Shown here piece by piece: positions 3,713 to 45,561 of a DNA stretch of 45,754 nucleotides. The DNA is taken from contig DXIU01000097.1 of the NCBI GenBank assembly GCA_019112765.1, forward strand, positions 1 to 45,754, given 5' to 3'. Source of the stretch: Candidatus Mediterraneibacter norwichensis (lineage in GTDB: Bacteria; Bacillota; Clostridia; Lachnospirales; Lachnospiraceae). The stretch's first letter is position 1. The number at the start of each line of letters is the position of its first letter. The notes beneath the pieces are model-generated. The model was not told the origin of the DNA and ran no database searches. It saw only the letters and a program-made list of their open reading frames with translations. The position numbers and the translations under genes are program-made.

Positions 3713-3724
3713 CATTTTCTACAA

Positions 3725-4066
3725 TGGAGCTGGCGGGAATCGAACCCGCGTCCAAAAATCCATCCCATGTACTTCTACTATCATAGTCCGTTCTTTTTCA
3801 TTCCCTCCGCCGTATGGAAACGAACATCCTTACGGGTTCAGTAGCTTCATATTACGCCTGACGGCTCAAAGCTTTGCCGCCATCGTTTCTCACATGTCTG
3901 ATACCGGATTCCTGATGTGTGAGTGCGTCAGGAGCGGCATGCAGCATTTAGGCTGCAGCTAATTCGTAATTATCGTTAGCGTTTAATTTTAAGTTTGCGA
4001 TTTAACGCATCAGCCTACGGATAGCTTCTCCATCTTCAGAATCCCTGTCGAAACCAGTACAACCCC
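3725..4066 (-). ncRNA. ssrA: tmRNA (transfer-messenger RNA)
   Basis: About 342 nucleotides. The 5' end GGGGUUG pairs with the 3' end CAGCUCC to give the tRNA-like acceptor stem, and the T-arm GGGUUCGAUUCCC is clear. After the 5' end comes the conserved CUGGUUUCGACAGGG. The tag frame runs from the resume codon GCA (3998) to a TAA at 3948-3950 and encodes ANLKLNANDNYELAAA, with a typical ANDNY..LAAA-like end that targets rescued proteins for proteolysis. The 3' CCA is not encoded (the next bases are TTG). It releases stalled ribosomes. The Rep/integrase element lies directly beyond its 3' end, which remains complete. Confidence 0.95.
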
Positions 4067-31586: not shown

Positions 31587-31610
31587 ACAGAAAGGCAAAA
31601 TAAGATAAAA

Positions 31611-31695
31611 ACGGGGAGCTCGCTTAAGCGGGCTGAGAGTAAGCTGTACCGCTTAGACCCGCAGACCTGATTTGGATAATGCCAACGTAGGGACA
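31611..31695 (+). promoter_or_regulatory. TPP riboswitch (THI element)
   Basis: The aptamer core is unmistakable: ACGGGG at the 5' side, GGCUGAGA (31630-31637), then ACCCGCAGACCUGAUUUGGA and UAAUGCCAACGUAGGGA on the 3' side. It binds thiamine pyrophosphate and controls the thiC leader. A terminator hairpin lies about 40 bases downstream, so control is by premature termination when TPP is abundant. Confidence 0.97.
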
Positions 31696-31736
31696 TATGC
31701 CAGCATAATTATACCGGCGGGACAGCCGGTTTGCGG

Positions 31737-35757: not shown

Positions 35758-37392
35758 ATGGGAATAACAGATATCCTCTCTTTGCTTGGAGGACTGGCGC
35801 TCTTCCTGTACGGAATGCAGATGATGAGTACAGGGCTGGAAGCTGCCGCAGGCAACAAGATGAAATCAATTCTGGAGAAACTGACCTCTAACCGGATCAA
35901 AGGAGTACTGGTGGGCGCGGGCATCACGGCGGTCATTCAGTCATCTTCCGCGACGACAGTTATGCTCGTAGGATTTGTAAATTCCGGTCTTATGACATTG
36001 AAGCAGGCTGTGTGGGTTATTATGGGCGCCAATATCGGCACAACCATAACCGGACAGCTGATCGCTCTTGACATGGGCGCGATTGCGCCGCTGTTTGCCA
36101 TTATCGGTGTGGCGGCAATTATGTTCGTGAAGAACGAGAAAGTTCATCATATAAGCAGTATTCTGGCGGGACTGGGTATTCTCTTTATGGGAATGGATAT
36201 GATGGGGGCGGCAATGGAACCCCTGCAGGATTCACCGCAGTTCATCAGCCTGATGACGAAATTCAGCAATCCGTTCCTGGGAATCCTGATCGGCGCGGTA
36301 TTTACGGCGATTATTCAGTCTTCTTCCGCTTCCGTAGGTATTCTTCAGGCGCTGGCTGTAACCGGACAGGTTCCGCTGTCAAGCGCGGTGTATATTCTTT
36401 TCGGACAGAATATCGGAACCTGCATTACAGCGGTACTGGCTTCCATCGGTATGAAAGTAAATGCCAAGAGAACAACCATTATCCACCTGATGTTCAATAT
36501 AATCGGAACAGCTATTTTTACGGTTGTCTGCATGGTGATGCCTTATGTGGCGTTTGTGGAATCTCTGACACCGGGCAATCCGGTCGCGCAGATCGCGAAC
36601 GCGCATACCATATTTAATATTGTGACAACCTGTATCCTGCTTCCCTTCGGAACTTATATGGCGAAGGCGGCAGAGCATATCCTTCCGGATCATAAAAAGG
36701 AAGATGATGAAGATCTTCGCCTTAAATATATCCGGCCTTTTGAATCCTCCTACGCCATCGGACACAGCGCGGTAGCCGTGTCCCAGGTGCGCGATGAGGT
36801 TGGAAGGATGCAGGATATGGTGAAAAAGAATATTGAAGATTCATTTTCCACACTCATTAAATACGATGAGATGCTGCGCAGAAAAGTAGCGGAGCGGGAA
36901 GAATATATTGATTACCTGAACAAGGGAATATCTGAATATATCGTTTCCCTGATGGCGTCGGAAATGTCCATGTCAGATTCCAGAAAGATCAACGGATACT
37001 ATTCTATTATCGCGAATCTGGAGCGGATCGGCGATCACGCTGTCAATGTAGCGGGATATGCGGATGATATGAAGAAATGGCAGATTTCATTTTCCGATAA
37101 TGTACTGGAGGAACTTGCCGAGATGAAGAAGCAGACCATCCTGTCACTGGATACTGTGCGGGATGTTACTTCAGAAAATGCGGCGCAGGTACTTGAAAAC
37201 GCCTCGACAATGGAACAGAAGATTGATGATATGAGGGACAAATATTTCAAAAAGCAGATTCAGAGACTGAAAAAAGGAAAATGCAAGCCACAGAGCGGTA
37301 TTGTGTTCTCGGAAGTCCTGACAGATTTTGAGAGGATGGGAGATCATGTTCTGAATATCGCCCAGCAGTACTGTGAGATGGAACAGGCATAA
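35758..37392 (+). CDS. Na+/phosphate cotransporter (NptA/PNaS type) with PhoU-like C-terminus
   Basis: 544 residues after AAAGGAGAAAAAGG. The first 310 residues are membrane helices in two inverted repeats, each with the QSSSA substrate motif: AVIQSSSATTVMLVGFVNSG (about 60-80) and AIIQSSSASVGILQALA (about 182-198). The remaining part is helical with two PhoU-like segments (ERIGDHAVNVAGYADD and FERMGDHVLNIAQQY carry the E/D-R-x-G-D-H motif that binds metals). Imports phosphate with sodium; the PhoU part may regulate flux. Preceded by PhoP-box-like repeats. Confidence 0.92.
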   Translation: MGITDILSLLGGLALFLYGMQMMSTGLEAAAGNKMKSILEKLTSNRIKGVLVGAGITAVIQSSSATTVMLVGFVNSGLMTLKQAVWVIMGANIGTTITGQLIALDMGAIAPLFAIIGVAAIMFVKNEKVHHISSILAGLGILFMGMDMMGAAMEPLQDSPQFISLMTKFSNPFLGILIGAVFTAIIQSSSASVGILQALAVTGQVPLSSAVYILFGQNIGTCITAVLASIGMKVNAKRTTIIHLMFNIIGTAIFTVVCMVMPYVAFVESLTPGNPVAQIANAHTIFNIVTTCILLPFGTYMAKAAEHILPDHKKEDDEDLRLKYIRPFESSYAIGHSAVAVSQVRDEVGRMQDMVKKNIEDSFSTLIKYDEMLRRKVAEREEYIDYLNKGISEYIVSLMASEMSMSDSRKINGYYSIIANLERIGDHAVNVAGYADDMKKWQISFSDNVLEELAEMKKQTILSLDTVRDVTSENAAQVLENASTMEQKIDDMRDKYFKKQIQRLKKGKCKPQSGIVFSEVLTDFERMGDHVLNIAQQYCEMEQA

Positions 37393-39681: not shown

Positions 39682-40677
39682 TTAATCGTCATCGTCGTCA
39701 TCATCATCATAAGGGGTATCTGCATCGTCATCATCGTTGTCATCGTCATCGTCGTCATGAGGAGTGTCTGCATCGTCATCATTGTCGTTATCGTCATAAG
39801 GAGTGTCTGCCTCATTATCATAAGAGTTGTTATTGTTATTGCCGGAGGAAGTATTTTCGCCGCTGCTGTAAGGGCTGTCTCCGCTGGTGTCGTATTGTGA
39901 ATCATTCTGAGCCGGCGCTGAAGGCTCCGCCGGAGCGGAGGGGATCGAGTAGTCGGTTATGCCGTCATCACTGCTGTCATCATATCCGGAATCTTCAGGT
40001 TCGCTTTCCTCTTCTGCCTGCGGAATAGGGATAGTAACAGTCTGTGACTGATCCAGAATCTCTTTTGTCGTTTCCGGATTTTCCGGCGGCAGAGATCCGG
40101 CGGTTATTTCCACTGTTATGCCCTGTTCCTGCAGATATCTGTTCAGTTCGTCAAGTATTTCCTGTTCGACTCTGTCTGCCCATATATCGCTGCGGGCATC
40201 TACGGAAACAGCGATCTGCCCTCCTTCAGCAAGATAGTTCTGCTCTATGGCCAGATCAGCCAGTTCATCCACAAGAGTTTCCTTATCTTTGCCGCTGTAG
40301 CTGAAGTTTTCAAGAAGTGCTTCTCCATCTGCGTTCTCACCGGAAACGTCCAGAACCCGTCCGGAACGGCTCAGAGAAATTTCTATTTCCGGATTGATCT
40401 GCATATGAACAGTTCCGTATTCCGTATACATGTACTGATATTCATATATGCCGAAAGCGCAGAGACATATACAGGCGGCCAGACTGGCAGCCAGACGGAT
40501 TATTGTATTTTTGCGTCTTTTCTTATCCTGCGGATAAAGAAGCGGAATAACCTTATCGATCGTATCGCCGACTTCATATCCGGGATTTGCCGTTTTAATA
40601 AAGCGTCCGCTGTTATCCAGGACGACTGCATAGGCGCTGTGTGTTTCGACTACCATATAGGCTCTGTTTTTTTTCAT
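39682..40677 (-). CDS. rsgI: RsgI-type anti-sigma factor with poly-Asp ectodomain tail
   Basis: 331 residues; GGAGCTGAAA precedes the ATG. The N-terminal 55 residues are the RsgI anti-sigma domain (MVVETHSAYAVVLDNSGRFI), followed by a TM helix (about 58-78). The ectodomain starts GTVHMQINPEIEISLSRSG and continues with the conserved RsgI middle domain to about residue 200. The tail is Ser/Pro/Glu-rich and ends in TPYDDN, TPHDDD and TPYDDDD units, almost pure Asp. RsgI proteins of cellulolytic clostridia carry carbohydrate-binding modules there; this one has a polyacidic sequence, so it may sense cations or a basic polymer. It lies 46 bases after sigI, which it should inhibit. Confidence 0.88.
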   Translation of the reverse strand: MKKNRAYMVVETHSAYAVVLDNSGRFIKTANPGYEVGDTIDKVIPLLYPQDKKRRKNTIIRLAASLAACICLCAFGIYEYQYMYTEYGTVHMQINPEIEISLSRSGRVLDVSGENADGEALLENFSYSGKDKETLVDELADLAIEQNYLAEGGQIAVSVDARSDIWADRVEQEILDELNRYLQEQGITVEITAGSLPPENPETTKEILDQSQTVTIPIPQAEEESEPEDSGYDDSSDDGITDYSIPSAPAEPSAPAQNDSQYDTSGDSPYSSGENTSSGNNNNNSYDNEADTPYDDNDNDDDADTPHDDDDDDNDDDDADTPYDDDDDDDD

Positions 40678-40723
40678 TTTCAGCTCCGTTTCTGTTATGT
40701 ATCAGAGGTTTCCCGGTTCTGTT

Positions 40724-41434
40724 TCAGAGATGATACAGGTGTCCCCGTATAATTTCATAGCCGTTGGTAAAAGCCAGCAGAATAGCTATAAGATATTTCC
40801 TGTGACGTTCCATTGTTTTTTTATCCGTTTTGGAAATATCTGAAAGCGCTGCTATTGGAAGCTTTTTTGTGCGGAGAAGCTCGTTGAGAAGTTCCGGATT
40901 TTCACGCGCGGCAGTCAGTACCCGTCTGCAGGCCTGAAGGGTGCGCTCCTGCCGGGGACAGTTGTCTGCCACATCAGAAAATGAAATACCGAATTCGAGA
41001 AGCTGCTTTCCGAATTCCTCGATTTCGTCTCTCGTTGCGCTTCTGTGATGACTTTTTTCAATTTCATTTTCGGGATGTTCAAGATGATCGATTTTAAGAG
41101 TGTCGCTTTTCTCATCACTGACAGGCTCGTGCAGTGATGTTACTTCTGCATGCCTTTTTTCTTTCCGGTAATAGTCAATAAGGCGGCAGCGGATTCCTCT
41201 TGAAGCATAGGCGAGAAATGCCCCGCGATTTTTTTCATATCCCAGAATTGCTTCATAAAATGCCAGCAGAACAATACTGAGCTCTTCATCCTGTCCTTCT
41301 ATCGGGGCACGATGGAGATATTTCGCTGCTTCAGCGCGTATAAAACCCATATACTGACGTATAAGACTGTCTGCCGCTTCAGTATCTGTCTTTGCCGCAT
41401 ATACCTGTTCCACAAGTTCATGCCCACCATTCAT
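40724..41434 (-). CDS. sigI: Alternative sigma factor SigI
   Basis: 236 residues from the ATG after AGGAGGG; a TTG one codon upstream is less likely. Region 2 is visible (DELSIVLLAFYEAILGYEKNRGAFLAYASRGIRCRLIDYYRKEKRH), with the typical SigI C-terminal half ending in a helix-turn-helix-like TDKKTMERHRKYLIAILLAFTNGYEIIRGHL. Unlike ECF factors, SigI keeps the sigma-70 region 2 but a distinct C-terminal domain. Paired with rsgI in one minus-strand operon. Its own promoter has the ACCCCGA-N17-CGTATACT motif, consistent with autoregulation. Confidence 0.93.
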   Translation of the reverse strand: MNGGHELVEQVYAAKTDTEAADSLIRQYMGFIRAEAAKYLHRAPIEGQDEELSIVLLAFYEAILGYEKNRGAFLAYASRGIRCRLIDYYRKEKRHAEVTSLHEPVSDEKSDTLKIDHLEHPENEIEKSHHRSATRDEIEEFGKQLLEFGISFSDVADNCPRQERTLQACRRVLTAARENPELLNELLRTKKLPIAALSDISKTDKKTMERHRKYLIAILLAFTNGYEIIRGHLYHL

Positions 41435-41456
41435 CAAATTTCCCTCCTATAAGAAG

Positions 41457-41486
41457 TATACGAAACAGAGAAATCATTTTCGGGGT
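41457..41486 (-). promoter_or_regulatory. SigI-type promoter of sigI-rsgI
   Basis: On the minus strand ACCCCGA (41480-41486) and CGTATA (41457-41462, continuing CT) are 17 bases apart. B. subtilis and C. thermocellum SigI promoters have a CCC-rich -35 and a CG-A -10. The predicted start is about 16 bases before the ATG. Confidence 0.8.
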
Positions 41487-41640
41487 CTGAAGTCAGAAAA
41501 TTGCGGAATCAGTATATCTCCCGGATATTAAATATATGTTAGATATAAGTAAAAACTTGGTAAATTCGGAGACAAAGGAGGGAAGGCTACATTATAATAG
41601 AGCAAATAAAACAGCAAAGCCGGAAAATTTTTTTCAGCAG

Positions 41641-41670
41641 ACCCCGATTTTCGGATTTTGCTTCCGTATA
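41641..41670 (+). promoter_or_regulatory. SigI-type promoter of the lipoprotein-VTC-DUF4956-CotH operon
   Basis: ACCCCGA (41641-41647), a 17-base spacer, then CGTATA (41665-41670, continuing CT). It is the same motif and the same spacing as the sigI promoter but divergent from it. Start near 41677, about 45 bases before the lipoprotein ATG. Confidence 0.8.
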
Positions 41671-41721
41671 CTATATCAAAAGCTGAAACAAAATTCAAAT
41701 GAAAAAAGGAGTGAATGAATT

Positions 41722-42720
41722 ATGACAAAGAAAAAATTAATGGCAACACTGGCGGCAGTATTATCTCTTTCTCTTTGCGGAGGACTTTTCGCAGGATGCG
41801 GCAGCAGAGAAACGACAGCGCCAACTTCCGGTGCAGGTACAGAAATTCAGAAGGAAGAAACAGGCGGTGTGATTTCAATCAAAGTTAACCCTGAGATTGC
41901 GGTACATTATGACGATCAGGGAATGGTAACAAGAATTGAGGCACGCAATGACGACGGCGAGAAGGTAATAGCGGATTATACAGGCTTTGAAGGAAAGGAA
42001 TGCCGCATTGTAATCGGAGATCTTGTAGCGGCAATTAATGAAGCAGGATATTTTGTAGAAGAAGCAGATGGAAAAACCAATCAGATTACTCTGGAGATCG
42101 AGGAGGGCTCTGTACTTCCCGAAGAGAATTTCCTCAACATGATCGTGGCGGAAATTCAGAAATATACAAGCGCGGAAAAGATCAGTACTCCGGTTGCAGT
42201 TGACGGAGAGAGAGCTTATGGCTGGAGCAGTTACGGAGATACAGATTACGGCCCGGATAATGATGGAATAACAGATTACGGCGATACAGATTACGGAATA
42301 ACAGGTGACGGCGCAACAGATTATGATGATCAGAAAACGACGAAGTCATCCGGCAGTACAAACAAAAATACAAACAAAACGAATAATAAAAATAACAGCG
42401 GAAGCGCAAATACAGATTATGGAAACACAGATTACGGGAATACGGATTATGGTTCGGGGAACGACGGCGTAACGGATTATGATGATGACGGAGATTCCGG
42501 TTATACCGGAGGACAGACCACAACGACAAAACCGTCGGCATCCAGGCCGGCTGCGCCTGAGCCATCTCCGGCGCCATCCAGACCGGCTCAGTCAGGGAAT
42601 ACGGATTATGATGACGGAAATACGGATTATGACGACGATGATGACGGGGATACCGATTATGATGATGACGATGACGACGACGACGATGATGACGACGGGG
42701 ACACCGATTATGATGATTGA
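41722..42720 (+). CDS. Asp-rich lipoprotein with RsgI-like domain
   Basis: 332 residues after AAAAGGAGTGAATGAATT. Signal peptide with lipobox LFAGC (C26). Residues about 48-155 (GGVISIKVNPEIAVHYDDQG onwards) resemble the RsgI ectodomain, whose matching segment reads TVHMQINPEIEISLSRSG. From about 170 the protein is made of short repeats: GDTDYG, DGITDYG, NTDYG, then a Ser/Thr/Asn/Lys linker, and finally TDYDD and runs of up to twelve Asp. RsgI shares the hexapeptide DGITDY. A membrane-anchored polyacidic protein outside the cell, probably cation-binding, perhaps a decoy or reporter for RsgI. The last 11 bases overlap the next gene. Confidence 0.8.
   Translation: MTKKKLMATLAAVLSLSLCGGLFAGCGSRETTAPTSGAGTEIQKEETGGVISIKVNPEIAVHYDDQGMVTRIEARNDDGEKVIADYTGFEGKECRIVIGDLVAAINEAGYFVEEADGKTNQITLEIEEGSVLPEENFLNMIVAEIQKYTSAEKISTPVAVDGERAYGWSSYGDTDYGPDNDGITDYGDTDYGITGDGATDYDDQKTTKSSGSTNKNTNKTNNKNNSGSANTDYGNTDYGNTDYGSGNDGVTDYDDDGDSGYTGGQTTTTKPSASRPAAPEPSPAPSRPAQSGNTDYDDGNTDYDDDDDGDTDYDDDDDDDDDDDDGDTDYDD
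42235..42718 (+). repeat. TDY/Asp-rich coding repeats in the lipoprotein gene
   Basis: Short units ACAGATTACGG and GGATTATGATG-like motifs recur from 42235 to 42480, and GAT/GAC triplets dominate 42600-42718. Low-complexity triplet tracts of this kind can slip during replication, so length variation between strains is expected. The rsgI tail at 39682-39800 is a similar tract. Confidence 0.75.
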
Positions 42721-43405
42721 GAAAAATGCCGCTTTGTTCCGGCATGAACTGAAACATCAGATTACTTCCGCGGAGGACCGTATTGTATCAGAAAGACTTG
42801 GCAGGCTGTTCCCGAGGGACAGCCATGCCGGGCCGGATGGTGTATATCGGGTGAACAGTCTTTATTTTGATACTCCGGAAGACAAGGCGCTTTTACAGAA
42901 AATCGCCGGCACAGACAGAAGAGAAAAGTTCCGGCTCCGGTATTATGGGGAGTCTCCGGGATTTATCAGACTGGAAAAGAAAATAAAAAAAGGCGGGCTT
43001 TGCTCCAAACGCAGTGCCCGCCTTACGTATAAGCAGGCAGAAAAAATTTTAACAGGCAATGTTGACTTCCTGCTGGAAAGCAAAGACGCACTTCTGATTG
43101 AACTGTACAGCAAAATACGGGGAGAAATGCTGCGGCCAAGAACCATAGTGAGTTATGACAGAGAGGCATATATATTCGGCCCGGGCAATGTGCGTGTTAC
43201 TCTGGACAGAAATCTGTGTACATATACTTCCTGCAAAGGTTTCCTCTGCCTCCCGGCCGGTCATCTGGAAACAGGAGAGGGAACTACGATCCTTGAAGTT
43301 AAATATGACGCTTTTCTTCCGGATATTGTGAGAATGGCAGTGCAGGTGCCGGACAGAAAAACGGGCGCGTTTTCAAAGTATGCCGCCTGCAGGCGGTATG
43401 ACTGA
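42710..43405 (+). CDS. Polyphosphate polymerase (VTC) domain protein
   Basis: 231 residues; ATGs at 42710 and 42713 overlap the lipoprotein stop, so translation is coupled. This is a stand-alone VTC catalytic domain: FRHELKHQIT, VNSLYFDTPEDKAL, EKFRLRYYG, FIRLEKKIKKGG, CSKRSARLT, RPRTIVSYDREAY, RVTLDRNLC and ILEVKYD. The conserved Lys/Arg residues of the tunnel and the glutamate in LEVKYD are kept, so it may make polyphosphate from ATP. There is no SPX domain. Cytoplasmic by sequence; the next gene is a membrane protein that could serve as its channel, as Vtc1 does for Vtc4. Confidence 0.88.
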   Translation: MMIEKNAALFRHELKHQITSAEDRIVSERLGRLFPRDSHAGPDGVYRVNSLYFDTPEDKALLQKIAGTDRREKFRLRYYGESPGFIRLEKKIKKGGLCSKRSARLTYKQAEKILTGNVDFLLESKDALLIELYSKIRGEMLRPRTIVSYDREAYIFGPGNVRVTLDRNLCTYTSCKGFLCLPAGHLETGEGTTILEVKYDAFLPDIVRMAVQVPDRKTGAFSKYAACRRYD

Positions 43406-43480
43406 TAACAGGAAGCATAACGCAGGGCCGGGACATTATATGGGGATCTGCAGAACTACAAAAAGAAAAAGGGGGATACT

Positions 43481-44152
43481 ATGACATTTCAGGATATTTT
43501 TAAATCGGGATTTTTGGAGAATGTAAATGCGATCTCTGTTCTGGATATGGCGGCAGCGCTTATTCTGTCCTTTGTAATGGGACTGTTCATTTTCTATATC
43601 TATAAAAAAAGTTACTGCGGGCTGATGTACTCTGCAGCTTTTGGGGGCACACTTGTGGCGTTAACCCTGATAACAACACTGCTTATTCTGGCGGTGACGA
43701 GTAATGTAGTGCTTTCGCTGGGCATGGTCGGCGCGCTTTCGATTGTGCGTTTCAGAACAGCGATCAAAGAACCTATGGATATCGCATTTCTGTTCTGGAG
43801 TATTGCGGCAGGAATAGTTCTGGCAGCAGGCTTTATACCACTGGCGGTTTTTGGAAGCATATTTATCGGACTCGTTCTGCTGATCTTTTCGGGAAGAAAA
43901 AATATAGAACGGCCGTATATTCTGGTAGTACATTGTGAGACAGAAGAAAAAGAAAAAGAAGCGGAAGCCTACATAAAAGAGCAGGTAAAAGCGCTGTCCC
44001 TGAAAAGCAAGGCTGTTTCGCCGGGCTGTATCGAACTGAATTATGAAGTGCGTTTTAAAGAGGGAGAATCTTCCTTTGTCAATGCACTGTCCCGGATTGA
44101 AGGAGTCAGCAATGTGGTTCTTGTCTCATATAATGGAGACTATATGGGGTAA
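43481..44152 (+). CDS. DUF4956 membrane protein
   Basis: 223 residues after AAAAAGGGGGATACT. Four or five TM helices (about 20-45, 52-75, 78-95, 110-127, 130-143) with the loop GMVGALSIVRFRTAIKEP, the family hallmark with conserved Arg residues, and a cytoplasmic alpha/beta domain (about 145-223, YILVVHCETEE, then SRIEGVSNVVLVSYNGD). DUF4956 genes are frequently next to VTC and CotH genes in Firmicutes and Actinobacteria. Function not established; a basic channel for polyphosphate is a plausible guess. Six bases before the CotH gene. Confidence 0.88.
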   Translation: MTFQDIFKSGFLENVNAISVLDMAAALILSFVMGLFIFYIYKKSYCGLMYSAAFGGTLVALTLITTLLILAVTSNVVLSLGMVGALSIVRFRTAIKEPMDIAFLFWSIAAGIVLAAGFIPLAVFGSIFIGLVLLIFSGRKNIERPYILVVHCETEEKEKEAEAYIKEQVKALSLKSKAVSPGCIELNYEVRFKEGESSFVNALSRIEGVSNVVLVSYNGDYMG

Positions 44153-44157
44153 CAGGT

Positions 44158-45561
44158 ATGCTGAAACACAGATACATTGACGGGATATGCATTATTCTTG
44201 CGGCTGCGGCATGCGTTATGGCAGCAGTATTTCTGATGGGAGAAAAACTGGGCATCGAGTCTCTTTCGTCTGCCCCGGAATATTCGGCGAGGCTGTTTGA
44301 TGACAGTTATGTGCATCATATCGACCTGAGGGTGAAACACTGGGATATCTTTCTTGAAGAAGCGCCGGAAGAGGAGTACATCGAATGTGACGCAGAGATT
44401 GACGGGGAACTTTTTGCTTCCGTCGGCCTGCGCGCGAAGGGAAACAACTCACGCACGCTGGTTGAAAAATACGGGCTTGACCGGTACAGTCTGAAAATAG
44501 AATTTGATCATTTTCAGGAGGGAAATACCTATTACGGACTGGATAAGATGTCGCTTGACTCCTCTTTTCAGGATAATTCATACCTTAAAAACTATATCGC
44601 ATACGACATGATGGATTTTATGGGAGTTCCTTCGCCCCTGCGCAGTTATGTATGGGTGACAGTAAATGGTGAGGACTGGGGGCTTTTCCTGGCAGTGGAA
44701 GAACCGGAAGATGCGTTTGCCCGCCGGAATTTCGGAGCGGATTACGGTATGCTGTACAAACCGGATTACCGTTCCCTGGAAGAAGAGAACAATGATATTG
44801 CCCTGAAATATACAACGGATAATCCCGAAGACTACGACAATATTTTCCGGCATGCAAAGTTTGATATGAACGGGAATGATCAGAAGAGACTGATACAGTC
44901 GCTGAAAGTTCTCTCGGAAGCAGAGGGCGGGGAACTGGAAACTGCCGTTAATGTAGACGAGGTCCTCAGGTATTTTACGGTACAGGTATTTGTAGTTAAT
45001 CTGGACAGCTATCTCGGCCATACGGGACATAATTATTTCTTGTATGAAGAGGATGGGGTTATCAGTATTCTGCCCTGGGATTATAACCTGGCATTCGCGA
45101 CCTATTCGCTCGGAATGCCTGATCCCATCAATGACGCAGAACTTTATGTGAATTATCCCATAGATACGCCTGCTTCCGGTGAAGTTATGCTGAATCGGCC
45201 TCTTTATCATAATCTGATGCAGACAGAAGAGTATTTTGCCCGGTATCATGAATATTTTGATTATCTGATCAGCGAATATTTTGAGACAGGTTATTTTGAA
45301 AAAACGGCAGCAGAAACACTGGGAATGATCGGACCTTATATAAAAAAAGACCCGACAGCGTTCTGCTCTTATGAGGATCATCTGACAGGCGCGGAAACCT
45401 TTGTGTCATTCTGCCTGCTGAGAGCAGAAAGCGTAAGAGGACAGCTGGAAGGAGAGATCCCCTCAACAATAGCGGGACAGCAGGAAGATTCACAGAACCG
45501 GGTGGATGCTTCGGAAATATGGCTGCCCGACATGGGAGAAATCGCTGATTTAAAGGTGTGA
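44158..45561 (+). CDS. CotH-family kinase, membrane-anchored
   Basis: 467 residues with a weak ribosome binding site; probably coupled to the DUF4956 gene. An N-terminal hydrophobic helix (about 8-28) anchors or exports it. The CotH fold is clear: RAKGNNSRTL, KMSLDSSFQDNSYLKNYIAYD, GLFLAVEEPEDAFARRNF, VVNLDSYLGHTGHNYFLYEE (D283) and ILPWDYNLAF (D308). The two aspartates match the catalytic positions of B. subtilis CotH, an atypical Ser kinase of spore-coat proteins. Here it would act outside the membrane; Ser/Thr in the lipoprotein linker or an exported phosphate polymer are possible substrates (inference). Confidence 0.9.
   Translation: MLKHRYIDGICIILAAAACVMAAVFLMGEKLGIESLSSAPEYSARLFDDSYVHHIDLRVKHWDIFLEEAPEEEYIECDAEIDGELFASVGLRAKGNNSRTLVEKYGLDRYSLKIEFDHFQEGNTYYGLDKMSLDSSFQDNSYLKNYIAYDMMDFMGVPSPLRSYVWVTVNGEDWGLFLAVEEPEDAFARRNFGADYGMLYKPDYRSLEEENNDIALKYTTDNPEDYDNIFRHAKFDMNGNDQKRLIQSLKVLSEAEGGELETAVNVDEVLRYFTVQVFVVNLDSYLGHTGHNYFLYEEDGVISILPWDYNLAFATYSLGMPDPINDAELYVNYPIDTPASGEVMLNRPLYHNLMQTEEYFARYHEYFDYLISEYFETGYFEKTAAETLGMIGPYIKKDPTAFCSYEDHLTGAETFVSFCLLRAESVRGQLEGEIPSTIAGQQEDSQNRVDASEIWLPDMGEIADLKV

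Follow-up and report, generated by a model that had tools for sequence, protein, structure and literature searches.

A SigI/RsgI-type locus with VTC, DUF4956 and CotH genes and Ser/Thr-x-Tyr repeat proteins in Candidatus Mediterraneibacter norwichensis

The closest described systems to the locus treated here are the SigI/RsgI pairs of Bacillus subtilis and Clostridium thermocellum, the accessory genes of Gram-positive pel operons, the NELoc-2 locus of Clostridium perfringens and the spore-coat kinase CotH. In the available parts of PMC4711584, the SigI promoter consensus is given as ACCCCC with CGAA in Bacillales and as CGWA for C. thermocellum SigI3; in a B. subtilis reporter test described there, the promoters that C. 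thermocellum SigI6 switched on included that of the CotH-dockerin gene cseP. Excerpts of the literature describe SigI as recognising C-14 G-13 W-12 A-11, and RsgI_M as the autocleaving periplasmic domain of RsgI (PMC12203970). The accessible sections of PMC11677781 list a sigma factor, an anti-sigma factor, two polyphosphate polymerases, CotH, a glycosyltransferase and a polysaccharide deacetylase in NELoc-2, and those of PMC12345266 report that the trio of CotH, polyphosphate polymerase and DUF4956 was not found outside the Pel locus. The present analysis concerns a stretch of 45,754 nucleotides from Candidatus Mediterraneibacter norwichensis (assembly GCA_019112765.1, contig DXIU01000097.1, positions 1 to 45,754, forward strand; hereafter the window), of which positions 39682-45561 hold six genes: those for a SigI-family sigma factor, an RsgI-type anti-sigma factor, a lipoprotein, a VTC-domain protein, a DUF4956 membrane protein and a CotH-family kinase.

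All six open reading frames (ORFs) are present at the coordinates listed below with the domains named there (ORF list, Pfam and NCBIfam), and the set recurs in relatives, which confirms the six-gene locus first noticed in an earlier note made from the DNA letters. Each component family is known; what is new is that lipoprotein and anti-sigma factor have tails with a common Ser/Thr-x-Tyr motif that tracks CotH: lipoprotein tails carry it at all 37 loci that have CotH and at none of six without (seven of these 43 loci belong to the later set defined below). We found no description of this co-variation or of the promoter pair in the open-access literature searched, where the combined locus appeared only in the NELoc-2 gene lists of two papers (PMC2879425 and PMC11677781, as far as their available text goes). 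Both papers give such lists without interpretation, and the combination is to that extent not entirely new; the earlier note had taken the SigI control and the twin polyacidic sensor and lipoprotein as the new part. Its statement that the enzyme trio is known holds, from the pel literature available in part.

Gene content, promoters and conservation

The anti-sigma factor and SigI genes lie on the minus strand, and the lipoprotein, VTC, DUF4956 and CotH genes diverge from them on the plus strand:

39682-40677, minus strand: RsgI-type membrane anti-sigma factor (RsgI_N; one transmembrane segment at about residues 57-80; RsgI_M/SEAL with N-P at residues 95-96; acidic tail)
39709-39990, minus strand: anti-sigma tail segment with six Ser/Thr-x-Tyr sites (residues 230-323)
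40724-41434, minus strand: SigI-family sigma factor (ATG 41434; alternative TTG 41437)
41455-41487, minus strand: sigI-rsgI promoter, SigI-type, GACCCCG-N18-CGTATACT
41640-41672, plus strand: lipoprotein operon promoter, SigI-type, GACCCCG-N18-CGTATACT
41722-42720, plus strand: lipoprotein (lipobox Cys26; RsgI_M/SEAL with N56-P57; Ser/Thr-x-Tyr and poly-Asp tail)
42226-42711, plus strand: lipoprotein tail with 14 Ser/Thr-x-Tyr sites, 12 of them TDY (residues 169-330)
42713-43405, plus strand: VTC-domain protein, putative polyphosphate polymerase (start overlaps lipoprotein stop)
43481-44152, plus strand: DUF4956 membrane protein with C-terminal ACT-like domain
44158-45561, plus strand: CotH-family kinase (N-terminal signal anchor; catalytic Asp pair D283, D308)

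ATG 41434 is the more likely sigI start. The VTC gene starts at 42710 or 42713, within the end of the lipoprotein gene, and is followed by gaps of 75 bases (VTC to DUF4956) and 5 bases (DUF4956 to CotH). Between 42479 and 42713, the GAT repeats encoding poly-Asp keep the frame open upstream of the VTC start (ORF 42479-43405), so gene callers may wrongly extend VTC.

The sigma factor (P0002) is SigI-like: its best NCBIfam match is PRK08311.2-6 (168 bits, E 2e-49; equivalog cut-off 306), TIGR02895 gives 163 bits (cut-off 185), and its gene has both an adjoining RsgI gene and a SigI-type promoter upstream. The anti-sigma factor (P0001) matches RsgI_M with 79.6 bits (cut-off 25.3) and RsgI_N with 21.9 bits, under the cut-off of 25; it has a single hydrophobic segment, and I-N-P is invariant in 19/19 aligned RsgI proteins. 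The lipoprotein (P0003) also matches RsgI_M over the cut-off (51.3 bits), downstream of a lipobox Cys at residue 26. Its domain model, with a predicted local distance difference test score (pLDDT) of 83, has B. subtilis RsgI (8t9n) as best Foldseek match (E 1.4e-6), and the domain profile matches the same structure at 9.6e-8; C. thermocellum RsgI domains match the model at E 0.03-0.06, among unrelated matches. N-P-E is invariant in 21/21 aligned lipoproteins, some of which also have a PepSY domain.

GACCCCG-N18-CGTATACT stands on both sides of the window's intergenic region. The strict promoter motif was found within 450 nucleotides of sigI in 36/43 loci and of the lipoprotein gene in 33/39, with an expectation of 0.17 and 0.14, respectively, from mononucleotide shuffles (at one locus there was too little sequence before sigI for scoring). 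GACCCC-N18-20-CGTATNCT matches 20 times, in 11 of the 41 genus genomes and always within this intergenic region; the reversed control pattern has seven scattered matches. The agreement with the published consensus makes control of the locus by SigI very highly probable, in line with the earlier note's claim. SigI is probably devoted to this one locus, because the strict pattern matches in the genus genomes fall only there. A wider regulon in the window's own genome was considered and rejected: allowing up to three mismatches gave 145 matches (183 for the reversed control), comprising two perfect sites, one with a single mismatch (CGTG for CGTA) and the rest like the control. At one SigI-RsgI locus of another family (L062 6173-7183; loci are designated by numbers), a SigI-type promoter precedes a secreted-looking PepSY-domain protein that replaces the SEAL lipoprotein.

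A search of 61 genomes with the lipoprotein returned strong matches (E <1e-50) in ten, every one in the window's genus, and the same six genes in the same arrangement were seen in all nine besides the window's own, one interrupted by a contig end before CotH. A SigI profile scan of named genomes yielded 39 loci, from Mediterraneibacter, Sellimonas, Merdimonas, Claveliimonas, Lachnoclostridium, Flavonifractor, Pseudoflavonifractor and others, and 28 of these have the complete set. One of the remaining 11 has five genes, with CotH past the contig end; six stop before the rest is visible; L089 and L105 are SigI-RsgI-lipoprotein loci without the enzymes; L111 has CotH without VTC-DUF4956; and one is a distant SigI alone. 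The two operons are divergent in the loci closest to the window and tandem in Oscillospiraceae and some other loci. The SigI clade (>250 bits; next match 154) was found in 10 of 391 genomes of the class, own genome included. Ten further SigI-clade loci, from nine genomes, comprise four with six genes, one lacking only VTC-DUF4956 (L169), two with SigI-RsgI-lipoprotein and three with SigI-RsgI alone. L059, L072 and L022-L030, which are the same contigs as in the named set (for L022-L030, probably the same genomes), were counted once only; L092 and L093, identical in SigI, were both counted. The pairing proposed in the earlier note is thus kept in relatives (the six-gene arrangement in 9/9, one of them cut before CotH, and all six genes in 28/39 and 4/10), and the enzymes are frequent but not universal partners of SigI-RsgI. 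SigI genes outside the clade had a VTC or CotH match in 0/6 and 0/10 stretches read (5-16 kb), out of a list that holds many further such genes.

The contig ends 193 bases past CotH, and the region beyond is readable in relatives only. At L022 (7211-11056) and L029 (13163-17000), putative SGNH-like, MBOAT-like and DHHW/AlgX-like genes follow CotH and a convergent gene; together they presumably resemble an exopolymer O-acetylation cassette.

The Ser/Thr-x-Tyr tail motif and CotH

At 32 CotH-bearing loci, the tail position Tyr-2 (two residues ahead of Tyr) is Ser or Thr for 83% of 660 lipoprotein Tyr and 84% of 184 RsgI Tyr, over a background of 17-19%. Lipoprotein tails have 10-26 Ser/Thr-x-Tyr sites in each of these 32 loci and none in the four loci without CotH (L063, L064, L089 and L105). 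At those four, the motif occurs at 0 of 78 Tyr of the lipoprotein and RsgI tails, which are still acidic; Asp is the commonest residue at Tyr-2 in each lipoprotein (47/74), partly because the tails are Asp-rich. When the genomes behind these loci were searched, those of L089, L105 and L063 (85% complete in the case of L063) gave no CotH at all, and that of L064 gave one, in a separate VTC-CotH locus. The pattern recurs in the later set, ten SigI-clade loci fetched after it had been seen, of which seven were scored: lipoprotein tails have 14-21 sites in 5/5 loci with CotH and none in 2/2 without.

The count of 32 against four was drawn from 45 loci, with nine rows left out: L085 (CotH past the contig end; 19 lipoprotein sites), L094 and L104 (lipoprotein running off the contig; 10 and 3 sites), L062, L090, L095, L101 and L107 (no lipoprotein on the piece) and L110 (distant SigI). 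RsgI tails of L062, L090, L095, L101 and L107 have 1, 6, 0 (cut), 0 and 0 sites; the L101 genome is without CotH, and that of L107 has one CotH elsewhere. Left out of the later count were L166, L170 and L171 (no lipoprotein match) and ten classical SigI loci.

This co-variation makes it fairly likely that CotH marks the lipoprotein tail; for the RsgI tail the balance is close to even, tilting slightly against. The earlier proposal that CotH acts outside the cell on Ser/Thr gains support from the lipoprotein tails, the RsgI tails being less clear-cut. A rival explanation is an envelope-polyanion programme without CotH feedback, in which SigI would sense wall or cation stress via a disordered RsgI tail, lipoprotein, polyphosphate and CotH would be parallel outputs, and Ser/Thr-x-Tyr would be a mere repeat style inherited with the operon. 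Titles of published papers connect SigI/RsgI of B. subtilis, and disordered regions, with homeostasis of the wall, and the tails do remain acidic without CotH. However, the motif is missing from the lipoprotein tail in all six CotH-less loci examined while acid and, mostly, Tyr stay, and two of the six, L089 and L105, sit among CotH-bearing relatives in the SigI tree (L105 on a long branch, its placement unsure). We consider this programme rather unlikely. On the tree, CotH changes number 10, and 87 of 500 shuffles were as low; loci cut by contig ends were scored as without CotH, so this test is little informative.

The earlier note had paired sensor and lipoprotein through RsgI-like domains, Asp-rich tails and a hexapeptide, DGITDY, which occurs once per protein (lipoprotein residue 181, anti-sigma residue 238); the common tail motif proves far wider than that. 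The SEAL domain, the N-P site and the tail motif are common to both proteins, and both genes lie behind SigI-type promoters, features that would also suit a decoy: the lipoprotein would titrate the ligand, tension or protease of RsgI, with negative feedback by competition as its main role and CotH and VTC acting elsewhere. As a decoy leaves the tracking of CotH by the lipoprotein motif unexplained, we regard it as unlikely. A calcium-binding (TSP3-like) reading of DTDYGPNNDGVTDY was rejected, since the three repeat-bearing proteins searched had no match to a calcium-repeat family of Pfam at E<=1.

Kinase, polyphosphate and a proposed circuit

The kinase (P0006) matches CotH with 195 bits. Its catalytic Asp pair, D283/D308, was aligned on 5jd9, is invariant in 9/9 and is equated by us with D228/D251 of B. 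subtilis CotH. Its one hydrophobic segment is N-terminal and follows basic residues, so by the positive-inside rule the kinase domain should face outwards. The suggestion that CotH acts on the exported polymer found no support.

The VTC protein (P0004) scores 122.9 bits, over the Pfam cut-off, and R10, E12, K14, R74, R76, E88, K92, R100, R150, E195, K197 and K222 are invariant in 10/10. We take these to be residues that line the polyphosphate tunnel, as in yeast Vtc4; the tunnel is described, in literature available in part, as having many basic residues. A comparison of the VTC profile with PDB chains did not find yeast Vtc4. The protein probably makes polyphosphate. Among 295 genomes of the order, VTC is present in 127 of 140 with CotH and 60 of 155 without (odds ratio 15.5, Fisher p 7e-22, figures that ignore relatedness and shared operons). 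CotH and VTC were both sought in eight genomes with SigI-clade loci: none of the five that lack CotH has VTC, and in the three with CotH, VTC lies near a CotH gene. VTC as the cell's sole polyphosphate source was rejected: a match to the PP_kinase (PPK1) model is present in 40 of the 41 genomes of the genus, with two in the window's own, so VTC is not needed merely for having polyphosphate. The same genome has a second VTC match (G000:C135; L002 1510-3438 and L034) covering model positions 79-233 only, with the N-terminal part unmatched; after it come a DUF4956-like gene and the first part of one resembling a lipoprotein gene, and SigI was not seen alongside on the stretch read.

The DUF4956 protein (P0005; 44.1 bits, cut-off 30.6) has several transmembrane segments by hydropathy, a part in which its model is weak (pLDDT about 50-65). 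Its C-terminal domain has a beta-alpha-beta-beta-alpha-beta order, and its nearest folds are the MgtC C-terminus (2lqj, E 1e-3, the top Foldseek match, with none <0.001) and ACT domains; the NCBIfam MgtC/SapB-like model gives 28.7 bits (cut-off 214). According to the available text of PMC12345266, Streptococcus intermedius SIR_1592 has an MgtC-type membrane domain and an ACT domain, and from gene order we infer that it is a DUF4956 protein. A channel role for DUF4956 is conceivable, and polyphosphate export through it can be suggested tentatively. The yeast Vtc4-Vtc1 plan invoked by the earlier note is more weakly supported than its other proposals; the ACT-like C-terminus of DUF4956 is nearest to that of MgtC, at borderline E-values. 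Elsewhere in the window, about 2 kb from the locus, 35758-37392 encodes a putative Na/Pi cotransporter-like protein with a PhoU-like end; Rfam identifies a TPP riboswitch at 31602-31710 and a tmRNA at 3722-4066.

The three enzyme genes might alternatively form an exopolysaccharide accessory module, as beside pel, tuning a surface polysaccharide made elsewhere with SigI as the switch. CotH, polyphosphate polymerase and DUF4956 genes do adjoin Gram-positive pel operons (PMC7112168, PMC12345266), S. intermedius mutants in the CotH gene and the neighbouring membrane gene alter Pel level and aggregation, and NELoc-2 additionally has genes for a glycosyltransferase and a polysaccharide deacetylase (PMC11677781), all as given in the accessible parts of these sources. 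Of the 11 genus genomes that have the locus, however, ten, among them the window's own, gave no match to PelG, the only Pel protein searched (four of the ten are <90% complete), and by inspection no glycosyltransferase was seen in the six-gene block. Such a module is improbable; its Pel form was rejected as the principal explanation, as the own genome has no PelG match and so no adjoining pel operon is shown. In S. intermedius, deletion of the CotH gene, SIR_1592 or the polyphosphate polymerase gene left Pel still made in every case, according to partial text.

We lean towards a dedicated SigI/RsgI circuit in which CotH phosphorylates the Ser/Thr-x-Tyr repeats of lipoprotein and sensor, giving feedback. 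One SigI/RsgI pair would control its own operon and one divergent operon. SigI would be held at the membrane by RsgI, whose SEAL domain would cleave itself at Asn-Pro and whose acidic tail would extend into the wall; a signal on that tail would free SigI for transcription of sigI-rsgI and of the lipoprotein-VTC-DUF4956-CotH genes. The lipoprotein would repeat the outer part of the sensor in membrane-tethered form. Polyphosphate would be made by VTC at the inner face, probably together with DUF4956, and outside, CotH would phosphorylate Ser/Thr of the repeats in lipoprotein and RsgI, the output being a strongly anionic, phosphorylated surface layer. Because RsgI bears the same sites, the sensor could read the kinase output and adjust SigI; this feedback from CotH onto SigI, and with it its sign, is put forward as a possibility, rather less than even. 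That polyphosphate is the phosphoryl donor for CotH, an idea prompted by the scarcity of ATP outside the cell, is quite unlikely; equally so is the full circuit, in which VTC-DUF4956 would make and export polyphosphate, CotH would use it to phosphorylate the repeats of lipoprotein and sensor, and the sensor would measure the output and set SigI.

The gene unit, the promoter motifs, the domain identities and the co-variation of motif and CotH are shown by sequence. Several observations weigh against the circuit we favour. The loci are related, so the counts are not independent, and low-complexity tails change fast. L169 has CotH and an RsgI without the motif, and a single RsgI site is seen at each of L062 and L171, neither of which has CotH at the locus. 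In L172, which is one of the two CotH-less loci of the later set, a stop codon interrupts the sigI match, and the locus may be decaying. The enzymes are sometimes missing, three of the ten later loci having only SigI-RsgI and two more SigI-RsgI-lipoprotein, and CotH occurs without VTC/DUF4956 at L111 (whose genome holds VTC elsewhere) and L169. The co-occurrence of CotH and VTC stems partly from shared operons, and of the 13 CotH genomes without VTC (out of 140), seven are <90% and six at least 90% complete. Thirteen promoter places are without the strict motif; nine of them carry GCCCC for ACCCC, a variant sought post hoc. Finally, S. intermedius aggregation was reported as reduced only by deletion of the DUF4956-like and CotH genes and not of the polyphosphate polymerase gene, in the text available.

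The locus provides secreted CotH kinases with a candidate substrate motif, found by co-variation, and offers a candidate reason for the CotH-VTC-DUF4956 association. Its sigma factor is apparently devoted to one locus, and the sensor of that factor resembles a substrate of its own regulon. The question of the phosphate source of extracytoplasmic bacterial kinases would become directly testable in so compact a system.

Comparison with described systems

The locus resembles the SigI/RsgI systems of B. subtilis and C. thermocellum in its SigI-like sigma factor, the RsgI_N-transmembrane-SEAL layout, the N-P motif and the ACCCC/CGWA promoters. In contrast to those systems, its regulon looks like one locus, a lipoprotein copies the sensor's outer part, and the sensor tail is acidic Ser/Thr-x-Tyr rather than a carbohydrate-binding or glycosidase domain. 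With the accessory genes of Gram-positive pel operons, as described in the available parts of PMC7112168 and PMC12345266, it has the same three families side by side; unlike them, it has no pel genes in the block, and it has SigI control and an RsgI-like lipoprotein. It would contradict the PMC12345266 statement, as available, that the trio is confined to the Pel locus, if that was meant beyond streptococci.

NELoc-2 of C. perfringens is similar in that a sigma factor (SigI), VTC/polyphosphate polymerase and CotH are listed together, with an anti-sigma-domain protein or a 348-residue predicted cell-wall protein also listed (PMC2879425, PMC11677781, in accessible text). It differs, in a comparison by description only, in its two VTC copies, resolvase/recombinase, glycosyltransferase and polysaccharide deacetylase; SigI control is not proposed in the passages available. 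A further parallel is the B. subtilis spore coat, where CotH polyphosphorylates the Ser-rich repeat tail of the surface-layer proteins CotB and CotG (PMC7821199, in excerpt). The spore-coat kinase is produced by the mother cell and was assayed with ATP, according to the same excerpt, whereas the CotH described here carries a signal anchor, and its candidate substrate consists of acidic Thr repeats.

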